This document shows, one piece after another, positions 57-9,718 of a stretch of DNA of 16,693 bases (the stretch's first letter is position 1; every line of letters starts with the position of its first letter). The stretch is from contig NZ_GG695973.1 in NCBI RefSeq assembly GCF_000159955.1, forward strand, positions 225,068 to 241,760. The letters run 5' to 3'. The DNA comes from Paenibacillus sp. oral taxon 786 str. D14 (GTDB taxonomy: Bacteria > Bacillota > Bacilli > Paenibacillales > Paenibacillaceae). The notes under the pieces were generated by a model. That model saw nothing but the letters and a program-made list of their open reading frames with translations, was not told where the DNA came from and searched no databases. The translations under genes were made by a program, and so were the position numbers.

Positions 57-2339
57 TCACTGCCAGATAGATTTCATGTCCCAAACTTCCATCGACCTAA
101 CCACGAGCTCTCCATCTCCCCAAATCTCCAGCCCTAGAGCATCTCTGCGGCTCGGATAGACTCGGGTGGTCAGGCTTTTTAGTCCATTGGCATAAGCTTC
201 AACCATCGAACGGTCCAAAAAGAGATGCAGCTTTAAATTTTCACCGAACAGATCCAATCTGCCACCCTGAATTCCTTTGCACTTCTCTCGTGGATGCAAA
301 GTCGTTTTGGTTCGATCGACCAAGAGTTTACCTTCAACCTTATCGTAGTACAACAACGTTTGCTCTTTCCCATCCGGCGTACACCGCACTTTAATTCCGA
401 GTTGTTTGGCTTGTACCGATTCCAGTTCCACAAGGATCTCAAGCATGTCCCCTTTAATGCCCCTCAGCAGATCATTGGTCTCTGCCATTGTCTTGTCCTG
501 AATCGACAACCGCTTTGCGCCACGCAAGGATTGAAGCTCTTGGATCGGCTCAATTCCCAGGCGTCCATCATCCCGTAAATAAACGCTTAATGGCAACCCG
601 GCATTATGGGCCCAGCCCGATTGATACTCCAGCTCGGCCGTCCGGTCCCCTTGGGCTATCGTAAAAATGATCTTCCTTCCGGTCTTCGGATCCACCATGC
701 CGCTGGGTCCAGTAAAATGGAAGTCACCCACATCAATCAGCTCTGGTTCTTCCTGATCTGGAATAAACGAGAGCTCTTCCTTATCCAGCCGCCCAATCCA
801 GTAAAACACTTCAACGTCCGCACCTTCTCCGACTGGGCTGACCAGAAGCAGATGCTTGCTTTCCCCCTGCTTGTCCGCGCCAAGCGGAAGCAGAACCGGA
901 AGCTCCCAGATTGGTCCAAGATAAGGGAACTTCTGAAGATCCGCTTGGAAAAACGGTCCTTTGTACGTCCAGTTCAACATATCCTTCGAAACAAAGGCCA
1001 GGGCAGCCCCGCCTGCACCTTCGATCCCCGACCCCACTAGGGCATACCAACCGTCATCATCCTTCCAGACAAACGGATCTCGGAAATCGCCGAAAGCCCC
1101 CATCCCTTTTTGCTGTACGATGAGAGGCTCCGGATGCTTCACCCACTGAACCAAGTCCGAATTGCCATCCGTTAAGTAAGTACTTCGGGCAAGGGCCACG
1201 CTCTGATTTGGCGAAGCACTGTCATTTCCCGCCGTAAAAAACAGGACCGGTAAACCGTCCGCATCATAAGTGGCGCTGCCTGACCATATACCATCCGGGG
1301 CAAGTCCATCCTTCTCAGGGGCAAGTGCTACGGGAAGATCACGCCAATGAACGAGATCCTCACTCACCCAATGTCCCCAATGGATCTGATAGAAGTACGG
1401 ACCTAACGGATTGTGTTGATAAAATAAATGATACCGCCCCTCGAAATAAATCGGTGCATGTGGTTCGTTCATCCAATGAGCAGGAGGGCTGACATGATAC
1501 TGCGGCCTATGCCAATCTAGCAGAAGCGGAGCCCGATCCAGCTTAATTTCATCATAGGGCACCTGAGGTTTGATACCGCCATATAGGGAATCAAGCACTT
1601 CCCGATACGATGCGGCTATTTCCTCTCCACTTAATGCCCGTCGATAAATCTTCAACTCATCCAAGATTCCGCTGAACATTTGGAGGTGAAATACTCCGGC
1701 CCAACGGCTGCTGTGATTATTTTTGCCGATTAGTAAATCTGTACCTACAGCCTCAACCATTCGAGAACCGACAGGTACCTCAGATGAAGCAATTGCTCGG
1801 CCATTCAAGTACAGCTTAATTTCGCCTCGATCCCCATCAAAAACCGCATTAACATAGGACCATTCATGCTTGGGCAACTCACAGCCGTCCGGTGACCAAA
1901 CTTCCTTCCAGCCCCCTTGATCAAGTCCCAACTGAAAAGACCATCGTCCGTGCCGGAACATCCCCAGCAGATAACCCTGGTGACGATCCCGATGATGACG
2001 GTTCACAATAGCAGCCAGCTTCCCTTCATACCCCCAGTCATAGGAGCGCGGCGCCACCCACACCCCTATGCTTAAGGCTGACAACAGCTTTGGCTCCTGC
2101 ATCCTGTCCATTTCTCTGGCTGGATGGGTGATAAAGGTCGAATAACCGTCAAACAGGAGGCCCCTTCCTACAACTCCTTGTCTCCATTGCGGATCAACAG
2201 GCCCGGTGAATTCAGCTTGATTAAATACATACTGAATCTCATCCCATGAAAGAGATACCTGCTCTAGAGCGCTTCTTCCGGCACCTTCATCAAATGCCCA
2301 GTACATCATTAATTCTTGGTCTCCTGCGAGCCGACGCAT
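57..2339 (-). CDS. LamG-domain GH32 family protein, cytoplasmic, atypical catalytic motif
   Basis: This 760-residue protein has an N-terminal LamG/concanavalin-type lectin domain (about residues 10-250, starting at YWAFDEGAG and ending near LDELKIYRRALSGEEI), then a GH32 five-bladed propeller (about 275-600) and a C-terminal beta-sandwich (about 605-755). GH32 proteins hydrolyse or transfer beta-fructosyl units. The RDP motif is present (FRDP, Asp421), as is the acid/base Glu479, but in WELP rather than the usual WECP. The nucleophile motif reads WMNEPHAP instead of WMNDPNG, so Glu292 replaces the expected Asp. There is no signal peptide or lipobox, so it should act in the cytoplasm on imported oligosaccharide. 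It directly follows the kinase-GH32 gene. AGGAGG lies 8 bases before the chosen ATG at 2339; an in-frame TTG at 2342 is the alternative. Fold and family are clear; substrate and even activity are not. Confidence 0.9.
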   Translation of the reverse strand: MRRLAGDQELMMYWAFDEGAGRSALEQVSLSWDEIQYVFNQAEFTGPVDPQWRQGVVGRGLLFDGYSTFITHPAREMDRMQEPKLLSALSIGVWVAPRSYDWGYEGKLAAIVNRHHRDRHQGYLLGMFRHGRWSFQLGLDQGGWKEVWSPDGCELPKHEWSYVNAVFDGDRGEIKLYLNGRAIASSEVPVGSRMVEAVGTDLLIGKNNHSSRWAGVFHLQMFSGILDELKIYRRALSGEEIAASYREVLDSLYGGIKPQVPYDEIKLDRAPLLLDWHRPQYHVSPPAHWMNEPHAPIYFEGRYHLFYQHNPLGPYFYQIHWGHWVSEDLVHWRDLPVALAPEKDGLAPDGIWSGSATYDADGLPVLFFTAGNDSASPNQSVALARSTYLTDGNSDLVQWVKHPEPLIVQQKGMGAFGDFRDPFVWKDDDGWYALVGSGIEGAGGAALAFVSKDMLNWTYKGPFFQADLQKFPYLGPIWELPVLLPLGADKQGESKHLLLVSPVGEGADVEVFYWIGRLDKEELSFIPDQEEPELIDVGDFHFTGPSGMVDPKTGRKIIFTIAQGDRTAELEYQSGWAHNAGLPLSVYLRDDGRLGIEPIQELQSLRGAKRLSIQDKTMAETNDLLRGIKGDMLEILVELESVQAKQLGIKVRCTPDGKEQTLLYYDKVEGKLLVDRTKTTLHPREKCKGIQGGRLDLFGENLKLHLFLDRSMVEAYANGLKSLTTRVYPSRRDALGLEIWGDGELVVRSMEVWDMKSIWQ

Positions 2340-2342
2340 CAA

Positions 2343-4808
2343 TCATCCCTCCTGACACGCCACTTGCTTTGGAGAGGCGTAGGGAATCTCAACAGACTTC
2401 AATGTATGAATCTGAAGGGAATTTAGTATAACCTCCCCGGATTTCGTGATGACTTCAAACTGCTCAATCGGAGATTCCGGAAAAATTTGATCCGTCATTA
2501 CGACAAGTCCATGATTCCCGTACACTTCAACCGCATTGCGATCCAGCCAGACATGCAATTGGATTTTTCCGTCTACCGCCGCCATGTTAACCCCATGCTT
2601 GGTCGCAAACGACGGATGGAAATCAATAATCCCGGATTGGGTGCGATCGATGAATAGCCATTGAGTCCCGGGATCATAACCGATGATAATCTCGTCCTTC
2701 TCCAACGATTTTAACTTGATCTGCACTTCCTCGCCGGAACGGATATCAAGTTCCACCTCAATTTCTAGCAAATCTTCCTTCAGCTTCTGCCAAAAGGGAG
2801 CTTCTGGCGTAACCGTAACTTCCTCCCAATGCAATGACGCTTTGCGCAGTTGCTCCACTTCTCGGACAGGTAATTGAATCAATCGTACATTCCCATCCTG
2901 TTCATTCAATGTCAAGGCGCGTGGTAAAGTCATTGCGCCTCTCCAGTTGCCTGTAGGCGTCTCGTTGGCGTACTTCCAATTACTCATCCATCCAATGATC
3001 ACTCGTCGTCCGTCTTCTTTAGGGAGATCTGACCAGGTGACCCCGGCATAATTGTCTCTCCCATAATCCAGCCACAGAATTTGATCTGACGCGTTGTCAT
3101 TAATGAACGTGTTTCCGTCAAACTCACCGATAAAATACTGCGTACGCGATCCTTCCGGACAATTCGGATGATCGCCGATGCTGATAATAAGTACCCATTT
3201 TGAACGTCCGGTATCCCCTATCGGCAATTCAAACAGATCCGGGCATTCCCAAACGCCGTCATGCGACCCTTCTTCTTTACCGAATACACCGGACAACGAC
3301 CAGTTCAATAGATTTGTAGATTGATAGAAACGAACGTGATCGCCCGCCACAAGCACCATAATCCAACGCGCGCTTTCAGAATGCCAAAATACTTTTGGAT
3401 CCCGGAAATCAACCAGTCCTTCTTCTTCAAGAACAGGATTCCCCTCGTACTTGTGCCATGTCAATCCCTTGTCCCTGCTGTAGGCCAAGCTTTGCCGTTG
3501 ACGCGGCTGTCCGGTTTCCGGATGGGTATCCGCATGGGTGAAAATGGCCACCAAACCATGGGAATCTTCGAACAATCCGCTGCTATTCTTCCAATCCACC
3601 ACACAGCATCCGGAGAAAATAGCACCATGCTCATCCGGGAACAAAGCGATCGGCATATGTTCCCAGTGCACCAGGTCTTTACTTATCGCATGGCCCCAGT
3701 GCATTGGTCCCCATTGATTTCCGTAAGGATGGTGCTGATAAAATAAATGATAGCTTCCTTCGTAATAAACCAGTCCATTAGGGTCGTTTAACCAATGGGA
3801 TGGGGGAGAAAAGTGATAGCCCGGTCTAAACCGTTCTTCTTTATGCTGCGGAGTAGACTCCAGCATCTGATGGATATCCTCGATAGTTGGCATTGCTCCA
3901 AGTGCCCCTTTCCGTGTTGTCACTAACGCTCCTCCGGCATTTGCAAAAGCCAGCATGTTCGTGATTTGCGAGGACGTCAGTTCTTTCAGCGGGATTCCAA
4001 CCTCCAGGATTTTAAATAACAAGCATCCAAGAAAAGCATCACCGGCTCCCGTTGTATCAACGACCTCGACTCGAAACCCTGGGACATAACCGTCTTTACT
4101 TCCTAAACGGTAGTAGCATCCTTTTTCCGCCAAAGTGACAACGATCAACGAAATATCAAATTGCTGGGCTAGCTTCAGGGCCCCTTCCTCGATATCATGT
4201 GTCCCTGTAATAAAGGACAACTCTTCCTCGGATATTTTCAAAATATCCGCGTATTTCATTCCCCAAAGCGTATTCTGCTTAATCTCTTCCCGACTCTCCC
4301 ACAAAGCAAACCGAATATTCGGATCGAAAGAGAGTAGGACACCTGCATCCTTAGCCTTAAGAACCGCCGTTCTAGTTGCGGTACGAGCCGGCTCATGGGT
4401 CATGGATACCGTTCCGTAATGCAAAACCCGGCTTGAAGCAATCTTCTCCAGCGGAACATCCTTTGAATGCAAGAAGGTGTCTGCCCCTGGCTTCCGAATA
4501 AAGCTGAAGGATCGATCCCCATGATCGTCTAAATGGACAAAGGCCAGCGTGGTGCTCGCTTCACGCGTATACGATACTCCGGTAACGTCAACACCAGCGT
4601 CTTGCAAAGTTTGATGAAGCAAGGAACCAAACTGATCTTCCCCCACCTTACTAATCAATGCCGAGTGAGAACCTAACCGGGACAGCGCAGCCGCCACATT
4701 AGCCGGAGCTCCCCCAGGATTACATTCGAACTGCTCGTTCCCTCTTGATGAACGGCCTGCCGGTGTAAAATCAATTAATACTTCCCCGATTGCGATGACA
4801 TCAAGCAC
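2343..4808 (-). CDS. Bifunctional fructokinase (PfkB family) - GH32 beta-fructosidase fusion
   Basis: One uninterrupted 821-residue frame joins two enzymes. Residues 1-317 are a PfkB/ribokinase-family sugar kinase: GGAPAN at 32-37, FDPNIR at 161-166, and the anion-hole/catalytic motif DTTGAGDAF at 251-259 with the presumed base Asp257. Residues about 327-810 are a complete GH32 enzyme: WLNDPNG with nucleophile Asp342, FRDP with Asp470, WECPDLF with acid/base Glu521, then the C-terminal beta-sandwich. The linker is only about 10 residues. With no signal peptide, the protein should hydrolyse sucrose, its 6-phosphate or short fructans in the cytoplasm and phosphorylate the released fructose to fructose-6-phosphate. 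Start is GTG at 4808, with GGGGAG five to six bases upstream; the gap to the binding-protein gene is 20 bases. These activities are usually separate proteins such as ScrK and SacA. Fructose as kinase substrate is inferred from motifs and partner domain. Confidence 0.93.
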   Translation of the reverse strand: MLDVIAIGEVLIDFTPAGRSSRGNEQFECNPGGAPANVAAALSRLGSHSALISKVGEDQFGSLLHQTLQDAGVDVTGVSYTREASTTLAFVHLDDHGDRSFSFIRKPGADTFLHSKDVPLEKIASSRVLHYGTVSMTHEPARTATRTAVLKAKDAGVLLSFDPNIRFALWESREEIKQNTLWGMKYADILKISEEELSFITGTHDIEEGALKLAQQFDISLIVVTLAEKGCYYRLGSKDGYVPGFRVEVVDTTGAGDAFLGCLLFKILEVGIPLKELTSSQITNMLAFANAGGALVTTRKGALGAMPTIEDIHQMLESTPQHKEERFRPGYHFSPPSHWLNDPNGLVYYEGSYHLFYQHHPYGNQWGPMHWGHAISKDLVHWEHMPIALFPDEHGAIFSGCCVVDWKNSSGLFEDSHGLVAIFTHADTHPETGQPRQRQSLAYSRDKGLTWHKYEGNPVLEEEGLVDFRDPKVFWHSESARWIMVLVAGDHVRFYQSTNLLNWSLSGVFGKEEGSHDGVWECPDLFELPIGDTGRSKWVLIISIGDHPNCPEGSRTQYFIGEFDGNTFINDNASDQILWLDYGRDNYAGVTWSDLPKEDGRRVIIGWMSNWKYANETPTGNWRGAMTLPRALTLNEQDGNVRLIQLPVREVEQLRKASLHWEEVTVTPEAPFWQKLKEDLLEIEVELDIRSGEEVQIKLKSLEKDEIIIGYDPGTQWLFIDRTQSGIIDFHPSFATKHGVNMAAVDGKIQLHVWLDRNAVEVYGNHGLVVMTDQIFPESPIEQFEVITKSGEVILNSLQIHTLKSVEIPYASPKQVACQEG

Positions 4809-4828: not shown

Positions 4829-6463
4829 CTATTTATTTAGGTTTGCATTATAGCGATCCAACCCGGTTTGATAGAGTTCCATTAATTCATTGAGGCCCAT
4901 TTTCTCCAATGTTTTGACGTAGTTATCCCACTGTTCATCGACGCCGCCATCCACGATGAACTTTCCTCTTTGCGTATTTACGTATTTGATTAACTCAGGC
5001 TCAATTTTGTTGATTTTGTCCAATTCCTCAGGTTCAAAGAAGATGCTTGGATAGTTTTCTTTTTCCATGTAAGGGTTGTAATACTGCTCCAGATCTTTAG
5101 CACGTTGCTGAGCACGTGGTTCCATATCCACCACTTTGCCGAAATCTTCAAACGTAATCACGCCTGGTCCACCAGAACCCGGGGCAACCTTTTGCCGGAA
5201 CTCGCCTGCAGAGGTACCTTCAGGAAGCGGCAGATTCACCAATTTCCCATTTTCATCTTTCTCGAAGACGACACCCAGCGGACCCCAGTGAATTTGAGCG
5301 GCCATGTAAGGCTCATATTGCTGATCGATCCAACGCATGGTGATTTCCGGATACTTGTTTGCTTTGGTAATCACGAAAGCCCCGCGTCCCGGCCCCCCGC
5401 CATTGGCACGTCCGATTAACTGATCTCCATTAGGTCCTTTCAGCGGCGACAGCAGAACATAATCCTTACTGCGCTCCGGCCCGACAACCTCCTCGATTTC
5501 CCACCAGATGTAAGACCCAAGCGTCTCTTCTGTCGATTTGCCTTTAGCCAGATATTGCGCTGCATCCTGGGTAAAGGATTCGGGATCAATCAGACCTTGT
5601 TTGTACCATTTTTCATGGAAGTATTTGAGCGCCTCTTTGTATTCAGGCTGGGTTGCGGTGAAAATGACCTTGCCATCACGAACGACTCGATGTTCCAGGT
5701 TATCCGGAAGTCCAAACGCACCAAAGATTCCGGCGATATCCATACACCATTGCATATGCATAAAGCTGAGCGGAATTTCATCCAGTTTGCCGTTGCCATT
5801 CGGGTCCTGTGTTTTAAAGGCAACCAGGGCCTCCGTATATTCATCCAGAGTTTGCGGCACGTTCAGCCCCAGCTTATCCAGCCAGCTTTTATTGATCACA
5901 TGAAAGAACGGGTTCGTTCCGAGGTTATTATCTTCCCAGGATGGAAGTCCATAGATGTGTCCGTCAGGCGCCGTGATCGTCGATTTGATATCCGGCCGTC
6001 GTTCAAAAAGCGCTTTCAAGTTTGGCGCATATTGATCAATTAGATCTTCTAGCGGAATTATGGTTCCGTCCTTACCATAATTAATAAGTTCATAATCGGT
6101 AAATCCAGCTGCGTAGAATGCATCTGGCAAATCCCCACTGGCGATTAACAGGTTTTTCTTCTCGGTATAGTCGGTATCCGGAATGTTCTCCCAATTGATC
6201 TTCACGTTTGTTTCCTTCTCTAATCTCTTAAAGATCTCCATTTCGGAATACTCGGGTGCCAATGCGGCTTTTGGAGAGACCATGGTTAAGGTCACGGTGT
6301 CGTTTACAATCGGAAGACCCGTCTTGTTGAAATTCGTGTCTTCCACCGAGCTATTGGCCTGATTCTTGTCCCCGTCGCCGCTGTTCCCCTTGCCCGAACA
6401 TCCACTTAGAACAAAGGCTCCGGCTAAGACAAGAATCCCCATTTTTTTGTGCCATGATTTCAT
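4829..6463 (-). CDS. Sugar ABC transporter substrate-binding lipoprotein
   Basis: A 544-residue extracellular solute-binding protein of family 1, in the long class that pairs with LplB/YtcP-type permeases. The N-terminus has a charged MKSWHKK stretch, a hydrophobic core and a lipobox LSGC with Cys22 as the lipidated residue, followed by a Gly/Ser/Asn-rich tether. It should capture an oligosaccharide outside the membrane and deliver it to the two permeases encoded just upstream. The start is the ATG at 6463, because AAGGGAGG lies nine bases before it; the frame is open to 6502, but that would place 13 extra residues and the SD inside the coding region. The ligand is unknown; fructo-oligosaccharide or levan fragments are inferred from the two GH32 genes that follow. 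A gap of about 110 bases separates it from the preceding permease gene. Confidence 0.92.
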   Translation of the reverse strand: MKSWHKKMGILVLAGAFVLSGCSGKGNSGDGDKNQANSSVEDTNFNKTGLPIVNDTVTLTMVSPKAALAPEYSEMEIFKRLEKETNVKINWENIPDTDYTEKKNLLIASGDLPDAFYAAGFTDYELINYGKDGTIIPLEDLIDQYAPNLKALFERRPDIKSTITAPDGHIYGLPSWEDNNLGTNPFFHVINKSWLDKLGLNVPQTLDEYTEALVAFKTQDPNGNGKLDEIPLSFMHMQWCMDIAGIFGAFGLPDNLEHRVVRDGKVIFTATQPEYKEALKYFHEKWYKQGLIDPESFTQDAAQYLAKGKSTEETLGSYIWWEIEEVVGPERSKDYVLLSPLKGPNGDQLIGRANGGGPGRGAFVITKANKYPEITMRWIDQQYEPYMAAQIHWGPLGVVFEKDENGKLVNLPLPEGTSAGEFRQKVAPGSGGPGVITFEDFGKVVDMEPRAQQRAKDLEQYYNPYMEKENYPSIFFEPEELDKINKIEPELIKYVNTQRGKFIVDGGVDEQWDNYVKTLEKMGLNELMELYQTGLDRYNANLNK

Positions 6464-6572
6464 TGAACATAACCTCCCTTGAATTCGTCCTACTCGTTTC
6501 ATTACACACCTGTTCCATTACAATGAAATGGCCCTTAGCCTTGCATCCCCCCCTTCAAGTACGTCGTTAGCA

Positions 6573-7469
6573 TCAGCCCTTGATCGATCCGATCATCACG
6601 CCCTTAACGAAATACTTTTGGAGGAATGGATATAAAATGAGCAACGGCAAGCTGGATACGATGATGACACCGTATTTGATCAATTCGGTAACGCGCATTT
6701 TGGCCGCGTAAGATTCCACATCAATCATCATCCCTGAGTTCACCTGATTTTGGACAAGGATGTTGCGGAGCACCAGTTGCAAGGGATACTTGTTCTCGTC
6801 ACTTAGGTAAATCAAAGCATCGAAGAAGCCATTCCAAAAGCCAACCACATGATAGAGCACCATAACCGCTAAGATGGACTTGGACAAGGGTAAAACGATG
6901 CTCCAGAAGAATCTGGTATTGGAACATCCGTCAATCGAAGCGGCTTCCCACATTTCATCTGGGATAGTGGATTGAAAGAAAGTTCTGACGATAATCACAT
7001 TAAATACGCCGCCCGCTCCGGGGAGAACTAGTGCCCAAATCGTGTTCAGCATGTGAAGATCTTTAATCAGCAAATAGGTTGGGATTAGCCCGCCACTAAA
7101 AAACATGGTCACCATCAAAAACCACATAATCGCTGATTTCCCCACTAGATCTCGACGAGCCAGCGGATAAGCCGCAAATACGGTGACGGCCACACCAATA
7201 ATGGTTCCTAAAGTTGCGTAAAGGATCGAATTAGCATATCCAATCCAAATGGAGGAATCATTAAAAATCCGTTCATAGCCATCCAATGTGAAACCTTTCG
7301 GGTACAGCCAAACCTCCCCCGAATAGATATAATTAGGATCACTAAATGACGCGATCAGTACAAAGTACAACGGAAATAACACGAGCAGCATCACGATGGT
7401 TAATAAAGAATAGTTGATTACATCAAACCAAACGTCCCCTCTGCTCTTTCTTTTCAGCATGGAATTCAA
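6573..7469 (-). CDS. Carbohydrate ABC transporter permease, MalG/YtcP type
   Basis: A 298-residue inner-membrane subunit with six likely transmembrane helices, starting with a helix at NYSLLTIVMLLVLFPLYFVL. The EAA loop that contacts the ATPase is visible in the EMWEAASIDGCSNTRFFW segment, and the protein ends in the family-typical VKGVMIGSIKG. It should pair with the permease encoded 12 bases upstream as a heterodimer. The chosen start is TTG at 7469, six bases after AGGAGGGG; the first ATG (7460) is 15 bases from that SD, a poor spacing. No ATP-binding subunit is encoded in the operon, so the pair probably uses a shared MsmX-like ATPase from elsewhere, as known for Bacillus importers of this class. 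Confidence 0.93.
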   Translation of the reverse strand: MNSMLKRKSRGDVWFDVINYSLLTIVMLLVLFPLYFVLIASFSDPNYIYSGEVWLYPKGFTLDGYERIFNDSSIWIGYANSILYATLGTIIGVAVTVFAAYPLARRDLVGKSAIMWFLMVTMFFSGGLIPTYLLIKDLHMLNTIWALVLPGAGGVFNVIIVRTFFQSTIPDEMWEAASIDGCSNTRFFWSIVLPLSKSILAVMVLYHVVGFWNGFFDALIYLSDENKYPLQLVLRNILVQNQVNSGMMIDVESYAAKMRVTELIKYGVIIVSSLPLLILYPFLQKYFVKGVMIGSIKG

Positions 7470-7481
7470 GATGGACCCCTC

Positions 7482-8435
7482 CTACCACAAGCTAGTTTCT
7501 GTCAACTTCTTAGCGACTCGATTGACAATGACAATCAGGATAATATTGATCAGCGAGTTAAACAGGCCAACTGCTGTAGAAAAACTGTATTCTGCTTTCT
7601 GAATCCCCATTTCGTAGACATAAGTCGGGATGATATTAGAGGTGGCATAGTTCAAATCGCTTTGCATCAGGAAGGCCTTCTCAAATCCGATACTCATGAT
7701 GTTGCCCAGCGCAAGAATCAACAATATCACGATCGTTGGCAAGATCCCTGGAATATCCACATTCCAGACACGCTTCCATTTACTTGCTCCATCCATAATT
7801 GCAGCTTCATGCAGTTCCGGATTCACTCCGGCAAGAGCTGCAAGGTAGATGATCGTGGAAAAGCCGGTTTCCTGCCAAATCCCGGACAAGATATACAAAG
7901 GACGGAACCAACCCTCGTCAGCCATAAAGAGAATGGGATCTCCTCCAAACCAGGTGATGATATGATTTACAATTCCGCTATTTGGAGATAAAAAAACGTT
8001 CAGCATCCCTACAAGCACAACCGTAGAGATAAAGTGCGGAGCATAAATTACCGTTTGAATAAATTTCTTATATCTCTTGCCGAGCATTTGATTGAGCATA
8101 ATAGCAATGATGATTGGCGCCGGAAAACCAAATAGCAGCGATAAGAAACTAAGTGACAGCGTATTGGTAATGATGGTCCAGAAGTTATACGAATCAAAAA
8201 ATTCGATAAAGTGTTGGAATCCGACCCATTCACTCCCCCAGATCCCCTGACTTGGCGAGAAGTTTTTGAATGCGATTTGGACGCCGTACATCGGATAATA
8301 CTTGAAGATGAGATATAGAATAATGATGGGTAGCAGGAACAGATATAATTCATAATCACGCTTTACCCTGCTCCATTTGCTTTTCCGATGAGGTTTGATC
8401 ATCATCATATCCTCCCCGCTGGTTCTTGAGGCCAT
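7482..8435 (-). CDS. Carbohydrate ABC transporter permease, MalF/LplB type
   Basis: A 317-residue membrane protein and the first gene of the operon. It has a basic N-terminus (HRKSKWSRVKRDYELY), a first helix at FLLPIIILYLIF, and the LplB/YteP-family segment MYGVQIAFKNFSP. The EAA loop is at PELHEAAIMDGASKWKRVW. It forms the transport channel with the MalG-type partner. Two starts look usable: ATG at 8435 preceded by AAGGGAG at 8 bases, and a run of three ATGs whose last (8402) lies 8 bases after an internal GGGGAGG. I kept the outer start, but the inner one would remove only 11 residues. Its leader carries one LacI-type operator (8474-8489). Confidence 0.93.
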   Translation of the reverse strand: MASRTSGEDMMMIKPHRKSKWSRVKRDYELYLFLLPIIILYLIFKYYPMYGVQIAFKNFSPSQGIWGSEWVGFQHFIEFFDSYNFWTIITNTLSLSFLSLLFGFPAPIIIAIMLNQMLGKRYKKFIQTVIYAPHFISTVVLVGMLNVFLSPNSGIVNHIITWFGGDPILFMADEGWFRPLYILSGIWQETGFSTIIYLAALAGVNPELHEAAIMDGASKWKRVWNVDIPGILPTIVILLILALGNIMSIGFEKAFLMQSDLNYATSNIIPTYVYEMGIQKAEYSFSTAVGLFNSLINIILIVIVNRVAKKLTETSLW

Positions 8436-8473: not shown

Positions 8474-8489
8474 TTTGAAACGTTTCCAA
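8474..8489. promoter_or_regulatory. LacI-family operator O1 (downstream site)
   Basis: TTTGAAACGTTTCCAA, a near-perfect palindrome about a central CG typical of LacI/CcpA-family sites. It is identical to the site at 8579-8594 and lies between the presumed transcription start and the first gene, where a bound repressor could block elongation or anchor a loop. Assignment to the adjacent LacI protein is inferred from the same motif at that gene's own promoter. Confidence 0.72.
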
Positions 8490-8560: not shown

Positions 8561-8594
8561 ATCATACAGATATGACAATTTGAAACGTTTCCAA
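8561..8594 (-). promoter_or_regulatory. Presumed operon promoter region with operator O2
   Basis: Operator TTTGAAACGTTTCCAA occupies 8579-8594. On the minus strand a TATGAT box (8561-8566) follows 12 bases after it. The layout resembles the regulator's own promoter, where the operator covers the -35 and TATGAT is the -10. No good -35 hexamer is visible at the right distance, so the exact promoter is uncertain while the operator is well supported. If the box is used, the 5' leader is roughly 115 bases. Confidence 0.5.
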
Positions 8595-8666: not shown

Positions 8667-9635
8667 TCAAGTCGTTTCACCTTGCCTGTAGGTGACGGGG
8701 ATCCGATAGACCTGCTCTGTCAAAGGTTTCCCTTCGATCTTGCTGTAAAGCAGACGAATCGTCATCCGAGCCATTTTTTCTACCGGCTGCCTGATCGTTG
8801 ATAAGATCGGATGAAAGAAAGGATTATCCTGAATGCCGTCATACCCTATGACCTTGACATCCTCGGGAACACGGATGCCTCGTTGGCGTGCTCTTTCGAT
8901 ATAGTTGGCAGCCAGCATATCCGTAATGGCAAAAATGCCATCCACATCTGAATATTCATGAAAGAACTCATTAAAGTAGGATTCGTCATCTACAATAGGA
9001 TCTGGTTTCTCATAAACCACATGTTCGACACCTAAAGCCTCCGCCTCGTGAATGAATCCTTTTTTACGATTCATGGTTTCACTAAATACCGAAGTGATAC
9101 TCCCGATAAAAGCAGGTTTCCGAGCACCGGCTTTAACTAACTCCCGTAAGGCGATGCGTCCTCCTTCAAAATTATCCGAAGTCACGCAGGTGATTTTCTT
9201 GTTAAAATGCCGATCAATACTCACGATTGGGATATCATGACTCACATTATTTTCGATATCGTTGTATGTGATCCCCACAATACCAGCCACTTTGTTTTGC
9301 CGAAGCATATCCAAGTAGTACAACTCTTTTTCAGGCTTCCCTCCGCTGTTACACAACATCAGCTTGAAGCCTTCCCGATCCAATTCATCCTCTATGTAAT
9401 AAGCCAATTCAGAGAAGAATGGATTCCAAATGCTTGGAAGCAAGAGAGCGACCATCTTGGACTTTTGCATTTTGAAATTTCGAGCGACTTCATTGGGAAT
9501 ATAATTTAACTGCTTAATTGCTTCTTCCACTTTTCTGCGCGTCTTGGGTTTGACAGCCCCCGAGTTATTGATGACTCTGGATACGGTTCCCACGGCGACG
9601 CCAGCTAAGTTGGCTACATCCTTAATGCTTGCCAT
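8667..9635 (-). CDS. LacI-family transcriptional regulator of the fructan locus
   Basis: A 322-residue protein with an N-terminal LacI helix-turn-helix (SIKDVANLAGVAVGTVSRVI, about residues 3-22), a hinge region near residues 45-58, and a periplasmic-binding-protein-like sensor domain from about residue 60 onward. It should bind CG-centred palindromes as a dimer and release them when a sugar ligand binds. Four such palindromes occur in the window, two at this gene's own promoter and two at the operon promoter, supporting autoregulation and operon control. The ATG at 9635 has a GGGGGG stretch a few bases upstream. The ligand is unknown; fructose, sucrose or a fructan fragment fits the context. 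It is transcribed separately from the operon because a terminator follows it. Confidence 0.93.
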   Translation of the reverse strand: MASIKDVANLAGVAVGTVSRVINNSGAVKPKTRRKVEEAIKQLNYIPNEVARNFKMQKSKMVALLLPSIWNPFFSELAYYIEDELDREGFKLMLCNSGGKPEKELYYLDMLRQNKVAGIVGITYNDIENNVSHDIPIVSIDRHFNKKITCVTSDNFEGGRIALRELVKAGARKPAFIGSITSVFSETMNRKKGFIHEAEALGVEHVVYEKPDPIVDDESYFNEFFHEYSDVDGIFAITDMLAANYIERARQRGIRVPEDVKVIGYDGIQDNPFFHPILSTIRQPVEKMARMTIRLLYSKIEGKPLTEQVYRIPVTYRQGETT

Positions 9636-9665: not shown

Positions 9666-9694
9666 ATCATAGCATCAAACTGGAAACGTTTCAA
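9666..9694 (-). promoter_or_regulatory. LacI-gene promoter
   Basis: On the minus strand, TTGAAA (9689-9694) and TATGAT (9666-9671) are separated by exactly 17 bases, about 30 bases before the start codon. This is a good SigA-type promoter. Its -35 box lies within the operator at 9680-9695, so repressor binding would directly exclude RNA polymerase. Confidence 0.7.
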
Positions 9695-9695
9695 T
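9680..9695. promoter_or_regulatory. LacI-family operator O3, over the -35 box
   Basis: CTGGAAACGTTTCAAT on the plus strand. It has the same core as O1 and O2 but in the opposite orientation, with one mismatch at each outer end compared with O4. It overlaps the -35 hexamer of the regulator's promoter, indicating autorepression. Confidence 0.68.
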
Positions 9696-9702
9696 AATTA
9701 TT

Positions 9703-9718
9703 TTGGAAACGTTTCAAA
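9703..9718. promoter_or_regulatory. LacI-family operator O4, upstream of the -35 box
   Basis: TTGGAAACGTTTCAAA is the exact reverse complement of O1 and O2. It lies 23 bp from O3, just over two helical turns, so two dimers could sit side by side upstream of and over the promoter. Confidence 0.7.

Follow-up and report, generated by a model that had tools for sequence, protein, structure and literature searches.

Does the open frame at 2343..4808 encode one genuine protein that joins a PfkB carbohydrate kinase to a GH32 beta-fructosidase, and what would the cell gain from such a chain? Here we analyse the window, the whole 16,693-nucleotide stretch of Paenibacillus DNA that contains this frame, together with its relatives in protein and genome collections. 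We conclude that the gene probably encodes a cytoplasmic bifunctional fructosidase-fructokinase of a fructo-oligosaccharide/sucrose uptake operon, fused from neighbouring genes. The frame and its parts are as follows.

2343..4808, minus strand: fusion gene, PfkB kinase plus GH32 beta-fructosidase; 821 residues, GTG start (open-frame reading of the window, Pfam, G001 match)
3885..4805, minus strand: PfkB carbohydrate kinase domain, residues 2-308 (Pfam)
4032..4058, minus strand: DTTGAGDAF motif, residues 251-259, with the base Asp257
3837..3860, minus strand: linker, residues 317-324
2874..3815, minus strand: GH32 N-terminal domain, residues 332-645 (Pfam)
2406..2861, minus strand: GH32 C-terminal domain, residues 650-801 (Pfam)
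3783..3785, minus strand: GH32 Asp342 in WLNDPNG (alignment of fused proteins)
3399..3401, minus strand: GH32 Asp470 in FRDP (alignment of fused proteins)
3246..3248, minus strand: GH32 Glu521 in WECP (alignment of fused proteins)

Both domains are complete within the single frame. The kinase domain (PF00294) scores 195.6 bits against a gathering cut-off of 25.8, covers positions 2-301 of the 302-position profile and contains the GAGD motif with Asp257, which we take to be the kinase base. The GH32 N-terminal and C-terminal domains score 329.6 and 99.4 bits against cut-offs of 22.1 and 21.9, respectively. Asp342 (presumably the nucleophile), Asp470 and Glu521 (presumably the acid/base) lie in the NDPNG, RDP and EC motifs, where we take the GH32 catalytic residues to sit. 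The original prediction of an in-frame fusion had named these four residues correctly; each is at the position given and is conserved in all 103 aligned fused proteins, including that of the window. It had put the join at about ten residues, and the join is indeed short, but the gap measures about 8 residues in the window and 7-9 residues in 95 of the 103. No signal peptide is visible by eye in the 821-residue protein, which is thus probably cytoplasmic, as had been proposed.

A sequencing or frame artefact was considered and rejected. The identical frame is present in a separate genome, G001 (100% identity, no internal stop; this genome shares 95% of the window's sampled 31-mers), and 103 of the best 120 proteins carry the same three domains; a frame break near 3830-3857, which would have undone the fusion, does not occur. 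Comparison with the two nearest fused genes (L009 and L010) gives dN/dS values of 0.112 and 0.131 in the kinase half and of 0.115 both times in the GH32 half. Purifying selection is therefore similar on both halves among the nearest relatives, and the kinase is not decaying in the window's lineage. For six genes at greater distance, synonymous changes approach saturation, and dN/dS is only approximate.

How widespread the fusion is had been left as a question, with a database search for single chains proposed as the check. Our protein search scored 7,998 candidates, 7,997 of them at E < 0.001; PF00294 and both GH32 domains occur together in 103 of the best 120 of these 7,998 proteins, the window's own included, although two of the 103 (P0074 and P0075) are without part of the kinase. 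Organism-named proteins among them come from Paenibacillus, Fontibacillus and Cohnella. Databases already list these fused proteins, many under a kinase name; our literature search, covering titles, starts of abstracts and passages and leaving most subscription papers outside, returned no description of the fusion. Among the matches listed, from which weaker fusions could be missing, the fused frame is present in at least 19 of 148 genomes of the family (confirmed by reading open frames; G098 has another type of fusion, the other 18 the window's) and at least 21 of 246 of the order, likewise checked in the open frames. The order count leaves out G268, a candidate rejected because its match is two genes (L158). 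Within the window's genus, at least 6 of 15 sampled genomes have the fused frame, and in a survey of the phylum 2 of 398 do, both from the window's family, at E 1e-100 or better. Among the best 80 loci of a named-genome scan, which may omit records near the window, one is fused (L060, P. wynnii). Among 1,888 matching plasmid records, 43 span 80% or more of the query, and the eight of these that are listed all match in two to three pieces over separately annotated genes. The fusion is therefore common in Paenibacillus and its kin, and separate genes, adjacent in other bacteria, are the commoner state, in line with the original expectation.

The fusion gene is the fifth of six genes in an operon on the minus strand, which runs from a LacI-family regulator through two permeases, a solute-binding protein and the fusion to a LamG-GH32 protein.

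8667..9635, minus strand: LacI-family regulator (Pfam)
7482..8435, minus strand: ABC permease, first (Pfam)
6573..7469, minus strand: ABC permease, second (Pfam)
4829..6502, minus strand: extracellular solute-binding protein of the ABC importer (Pfam)
57..2339, minus strand: LamG-like domain plus second GH32 (open frame, Pfam); ATG three bases after the fusion's stop
9703..9718, unstranded: probable operator (motif match)
9680..9695, unstranded: probable operator, two mismatches (motif match)
8579..8594, unstranded: probable operator TTGGAAACGTTTCAAA (motif match)
8474..8489, unstranded: probable operator TTGGAAACGTTTCAAA (motif match)

The palindrome TTGGAAACGTTTCAAA occurs twice before the permeases, and two versions of it precede the regulator gene, giving 7 matches (both strands counted) against 0.30 expected. 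These palindromes are probably operators of the local LacI-type regulator, a link drawn from motif and position. The ATG of the LamG-GH32 gene three bases past the fusion's stop, together with an AGGAGG within the fusion's last codons, suggests that the two genes are translationally coupled. ScrB/SacA enzymes are usually encoded in a gene set with a sucrose PTS; no PTS domain was found among the six operon proteins scanned, and an ABC importer is present instead. The same gene order recurs in 6 of 10 wide loci with the window's fusion type (L039-L043 and L046 of L039-L048).

The LamG-GH32 protein itself has WMNEPHAP where GH32 enzymes have NDPNG, so that Glu replaces the nucleophile Asp. Glu is found in 17 of 17 distinct frames with the MN(D/E)P..HAP pattern in the loci examined; the pattern demanded HAP and so placed NDPNG-type frames outside this count. 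The solved inulinase 3rwk likewise has NEPNG. A second GH32 locus in G001 (G001:C1 2811247-2816356; L002, L003) has one GH32 in a 505-residue frame and another in a 1311-residue frame nearby.

In the mechanism that we favour, the ABC importer would bring in unphosphorylated fructo-oligosaccharide or sucrose, the GH32 half would remove terminal fructose in the cytoplasm, and the PfkB half would phosphorylate it with ATP to fructose-6-phosphate for glycolysis. The kinase half has the fructokinase equivalog NF006957 as its best NCBIfam match, at 264.1 bits; this is below the curated cut-off of 450, which is reached in 0 of 15 genomes (11 fused and 4 kinase-less) and 0 of 14 control genomes. Its nearest solved structure, 5ey7 (218.6 bits), bears the name Fructokinase and presumably comes from Vibrio cholerae. 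The GH32 half scores 239.9 bits with the sucrose-6-phosphate hydrolase model TIGR01322 (ScrB/SacA), below the curated cut-off of 356.4, and likewise does not reach the BfrA cut-off. Among solved structures it matches exo-inulinases best (393 bits for 8i12, versus 218 for 7vco and 82 for 6nu7, both sucrose-6-phosphate hydrolase entries). The halves had been called ScrK-like and SacA-like; the second label is loose, since the GH32 half is nearer to exo-inulinases, whereas the rest of that interpretation (a two-domain in-frame fusion, probably cytoplasmic, of enzymes more commonly encoded apart) stands. With the fructokinase and sucrose-6-phosphate hydrolase cut-offs not reached, we infer the exact substrates, and the scores below the fructokinase, ScrB and BfrA cut-offs count against the bifunctional reading.

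The fructokinase score also bears on whether the kinase half phosphorylates some sugar besides fructose, or has a purely structural role. Substrates differ among PfkB kinases, and 3 of 11 fusions of a second, ScrB type have lost the base Asp (P0134, P0180 and P0193; all 11 retain the GH32 residues). Against this, the fructokinase model is still the best NCBIfam match, the best solved relative is named a fructokinase, the partner domain belongs to a family that releases fructose, and the window's closest relatives show intact motifs and a low dN/dS. We regard a non-fructose or structural kinase as very unlikely here.

Genomes that have lost the kinase bear on the value of the tether. In G124 and G202, the GH32 gene stands alone at the same operon position behind a scar of about 14 kinase-start codons, a stop, and about 30 kinase-end codons in frame with GH32; in G007 and G091, with a different scar, only the last kinase codons are left. 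The wide loci of three kinase-less genomes (L049-L051) keep the other operon genes in the window's order. Individual proteins are damaged in other ways. P0074 is missing some 90 residues from the middle of the kinase. In P0103, a short remnant of the kinase and the GH32 part are preceded by another domain (PF01272, which we take to be GreA/GreB) that looks like a replacement for the lost kinase. The kinase stretch of P0112 is shortened and degenerate, with GEGD but no GGAPANVA, and gives no Pfam PfkB match. In a quick GH32 tree, the 11 kinase-less or damaged rows need four changes, four forced by starred branches. Judged from these sequences, deletion or damage has struck the kinase half on several occasions while sparing the GH32 motifs, and coupling on one chain therefore cannot be essential. 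The losses show that the pathway can presumably run without a tethered kinase, which counts against the bifunctional reading.

The kinase complement of these genomes varies. The best fructokinase-model match in the four kinase-less genomes (G007, G091, G124 and G202) is 129-134 bits, so no other strongly ScrK-like PfkB kinase has taken the place of the lost one; its task may fall to a kinase of another kind, such as ROK. The fused kinase scores 262-274 bits in the 11 fused genomes examined. In five of them (G001, G137, G019, G043 and G030) it scores 262-270 bits and the next kinase 133 or less, and by these scores the fused kinase looks like the only ScrK-type kinase. The other six (G145, G075, G018, G129, G111 and G056) encode a separate ScrK-like kinase (215-257 bits), which limits any claim that the fusion is indispensable.

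The tether could nevertheless be catalytic, with fructose channelled from the GH32 site to the kinase site, or one domain could regulate the other. The linker is short and nearly constant in length, which speaks for this reading, but its sequence is variable among fused frames. All 25 distinct fused frames begin with the kinase, an order that would also follow from the gene order of the tandem relatives described below. PfkB-GH32 fusions do fall in several places of the kinase tree, yet the kinase is dispensable in several lineages and the operon's second GH32 has no kinase. For these last two reasons channelling by the tether is possible but unsupported, and we hold a catalytic or regulatory role of the tether to be improbable. 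The simplest benefit of a bifunctional chain would be a fixed 1:1 supply of the two enzymes, and the gain may be no more than fixed stoichiometry.

The gene might also give two products, the full fusion and a free GH32 from an internal start at Met306. This residue is kept in 90 of 103 aligned fused proteins and missing in 13, and in the window AAAGGGG lies upstream of it; the methionine and the G-rich codons may, however, be kept for the kinase C-terminal motif. In G124, where the kinase is mostly deleted, inspection by eye shows no in-frame ATG, GTG or TTG ahead of the Met306 ATG in the GH32 frame. One protein, P0098, is predicted from Met306 and is identical by eye to the GH32 half of P0014, although starts chosen by gene callers are no evidence of use. 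We consider a second product doubtful, and the full-length bifunctional chain remains our preferred reading.

Unfused relatives point to how such a chain could have formed. A kinase frame lies at most 150 bases upstream of a GH32 frame in 12 of the best 80 loci (stop-to-stop frames; L058, L059, L062, L064, L079, L086, L088, L103, L105, L111, L116 and L136), and in other loci, such as L108 and L133, the kinase is downstream of GH32. Junctions were read at nine loci. At L058 (Bacillus sp. MM2020_1) and L059 (P. doosanensis), the GH32 ATG comes immediately after the kinase TAA, with no change of frame. At L062, L064 and L079, the GH32 start and the kinase stop are only a few bases apart but the frame differs. 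The two genes of L103 share a frame across a short gap, those of L088 and L136 do not share one, and the pair examined at L086 has GH32 first. Like the window, L058 and L059 encode the same enzymes with the kinase directly upstream of GH32, but as two polypeptides separated by one in-frame stop codon. L058 also shares the operon genes ahead of the kinase (lacI, two permeases, binding protein, then kinase and GH32); its downstream GH32-like frames are larger (the first 1820 residues) and are not clear equivalents of LamG-GH32. Beyond these loci, one study of butyrate producers places carbohydrate kinases with 9 of 17 GH32 proteins (PMC7833758). Counted by eye, the two L058 ends together exceed the fused junction by about 15 residues, which makes a short deletion across the stop likelier than a point change. 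The fusion would thus have come from two neighbouring operon genes, kinase first, through loss of the separating stop codon, most likely by a short in-frame deletion.

This may have happened more than once. In G098 (P0121, P. plantiphilus), a kinase is fused through a longer junction to a ScrB-type GH32, and ten further proteins of this type are among the matches listed. They share domain order and similar length with the window's type, but their GH32 domains fall in the ScrB branch and their kinases in other branches, without forming a single clade with those of the window's type. Two of them have unfused kinases as neighbours in the kinase tree: P0168 is paired with one from Halalkalibacter okhensis (99/89), and P0155 clusters with those from two Paenibacillus (100/100), both away from P0121-P0126 and from the window's type. 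The AU test rejects the ScrB-type fusions as one clade (p 3e-49; 8 of 11 rows), and a single clade for all PfkB-GH32 fusions was also rejected in the kinase tree (p 2.8e-38), a result that does not by itself separate gain from loss. The window's type (fused1) as one clade is not rejected in that tree (p 0.094), and the tandem pair L062 falls inside it. In the quick GH32 tree (no bootstrap), fused1 needs 9 changes, at least 6 forced by starred branches, because single, tandem and kinase-less GH32 genes lie among the fused rows. Of the 103 aligned fused proteins, 41 entered the trees together with L157, and the remaining rows were hand-picked from loci; left out of the kinase tree were P0074 (truncated kinase), P0134, P0180, P0193, P0112 and L116 (all on long branches) and L158 (identical in sequence to L059). 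On these trees, several separate fusions are the simplest reading; less simply, one old fusion may have split many times since, and the window's type may itself have fused more than once or split again.

Repeated fusion could in turn reflect real coupling, by channelling or by fructose-sensing control of the hydrolase, with the Asp-less kinases P0134, P0180 and P0193 persisting as sensor domains, at least for a time. We rate this as a slim prospect. A conserved pseudo-kinase family around P0180 was rejected, and decay is the simpler reading, because a search with its kinase part, which needs shared 5-residue words, returned only P0180. Other chains in the same searches have different architectures: P0128, P0130, P0131 and P0133 combine LacI-family regulator domains with GH32 in one protein of about 800 residues, a regulator-hydrolase fusion. 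The 813-948-residue GH32 proteins P0127, P0129 and P0171, listed for moths and butterflies (Helicoverpa, Maniola/Aphantopus, Choristoneura), are 38-41% identical to a ScrB-type fusion over its GH32 part.

One operon position therefore presents the life stages of a fusion: adjacent genes, a fused gene, and a kinase-less fusion with a visible scar. These are natural controls for whether fusing consecutive pathway enzymes speeds flux or merely fixes their ratio. If both halves of the bifunctional chain work, inulin or sucrose might be converted to fructose-6-phosphate in one step.

Among known systems, the kinase half most resembles the ScrK/FRK-type PfkB fructokinases (5ey7; NF006957), with which it shares a full PfkB domain and the GGAPANVA and DTTGAGDAF motifs; it differs in its score (264 bits versus the cut-off of 450) and in its fusion to GH32. 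The hydrolase half shares both GH32 domains and the three catalytic motifs with exo-inulinases and beta-fructosidases (8i12, 1y4w) and with SacA/ScrB (TIGR01322), while scoring below the cut-offs of both the ScrB and BfrA families. Unlike 8i12, 1y4w and SacA/ScrB, the window's protein is without a signal peptide by eye and carries a kinase at its N terminus.
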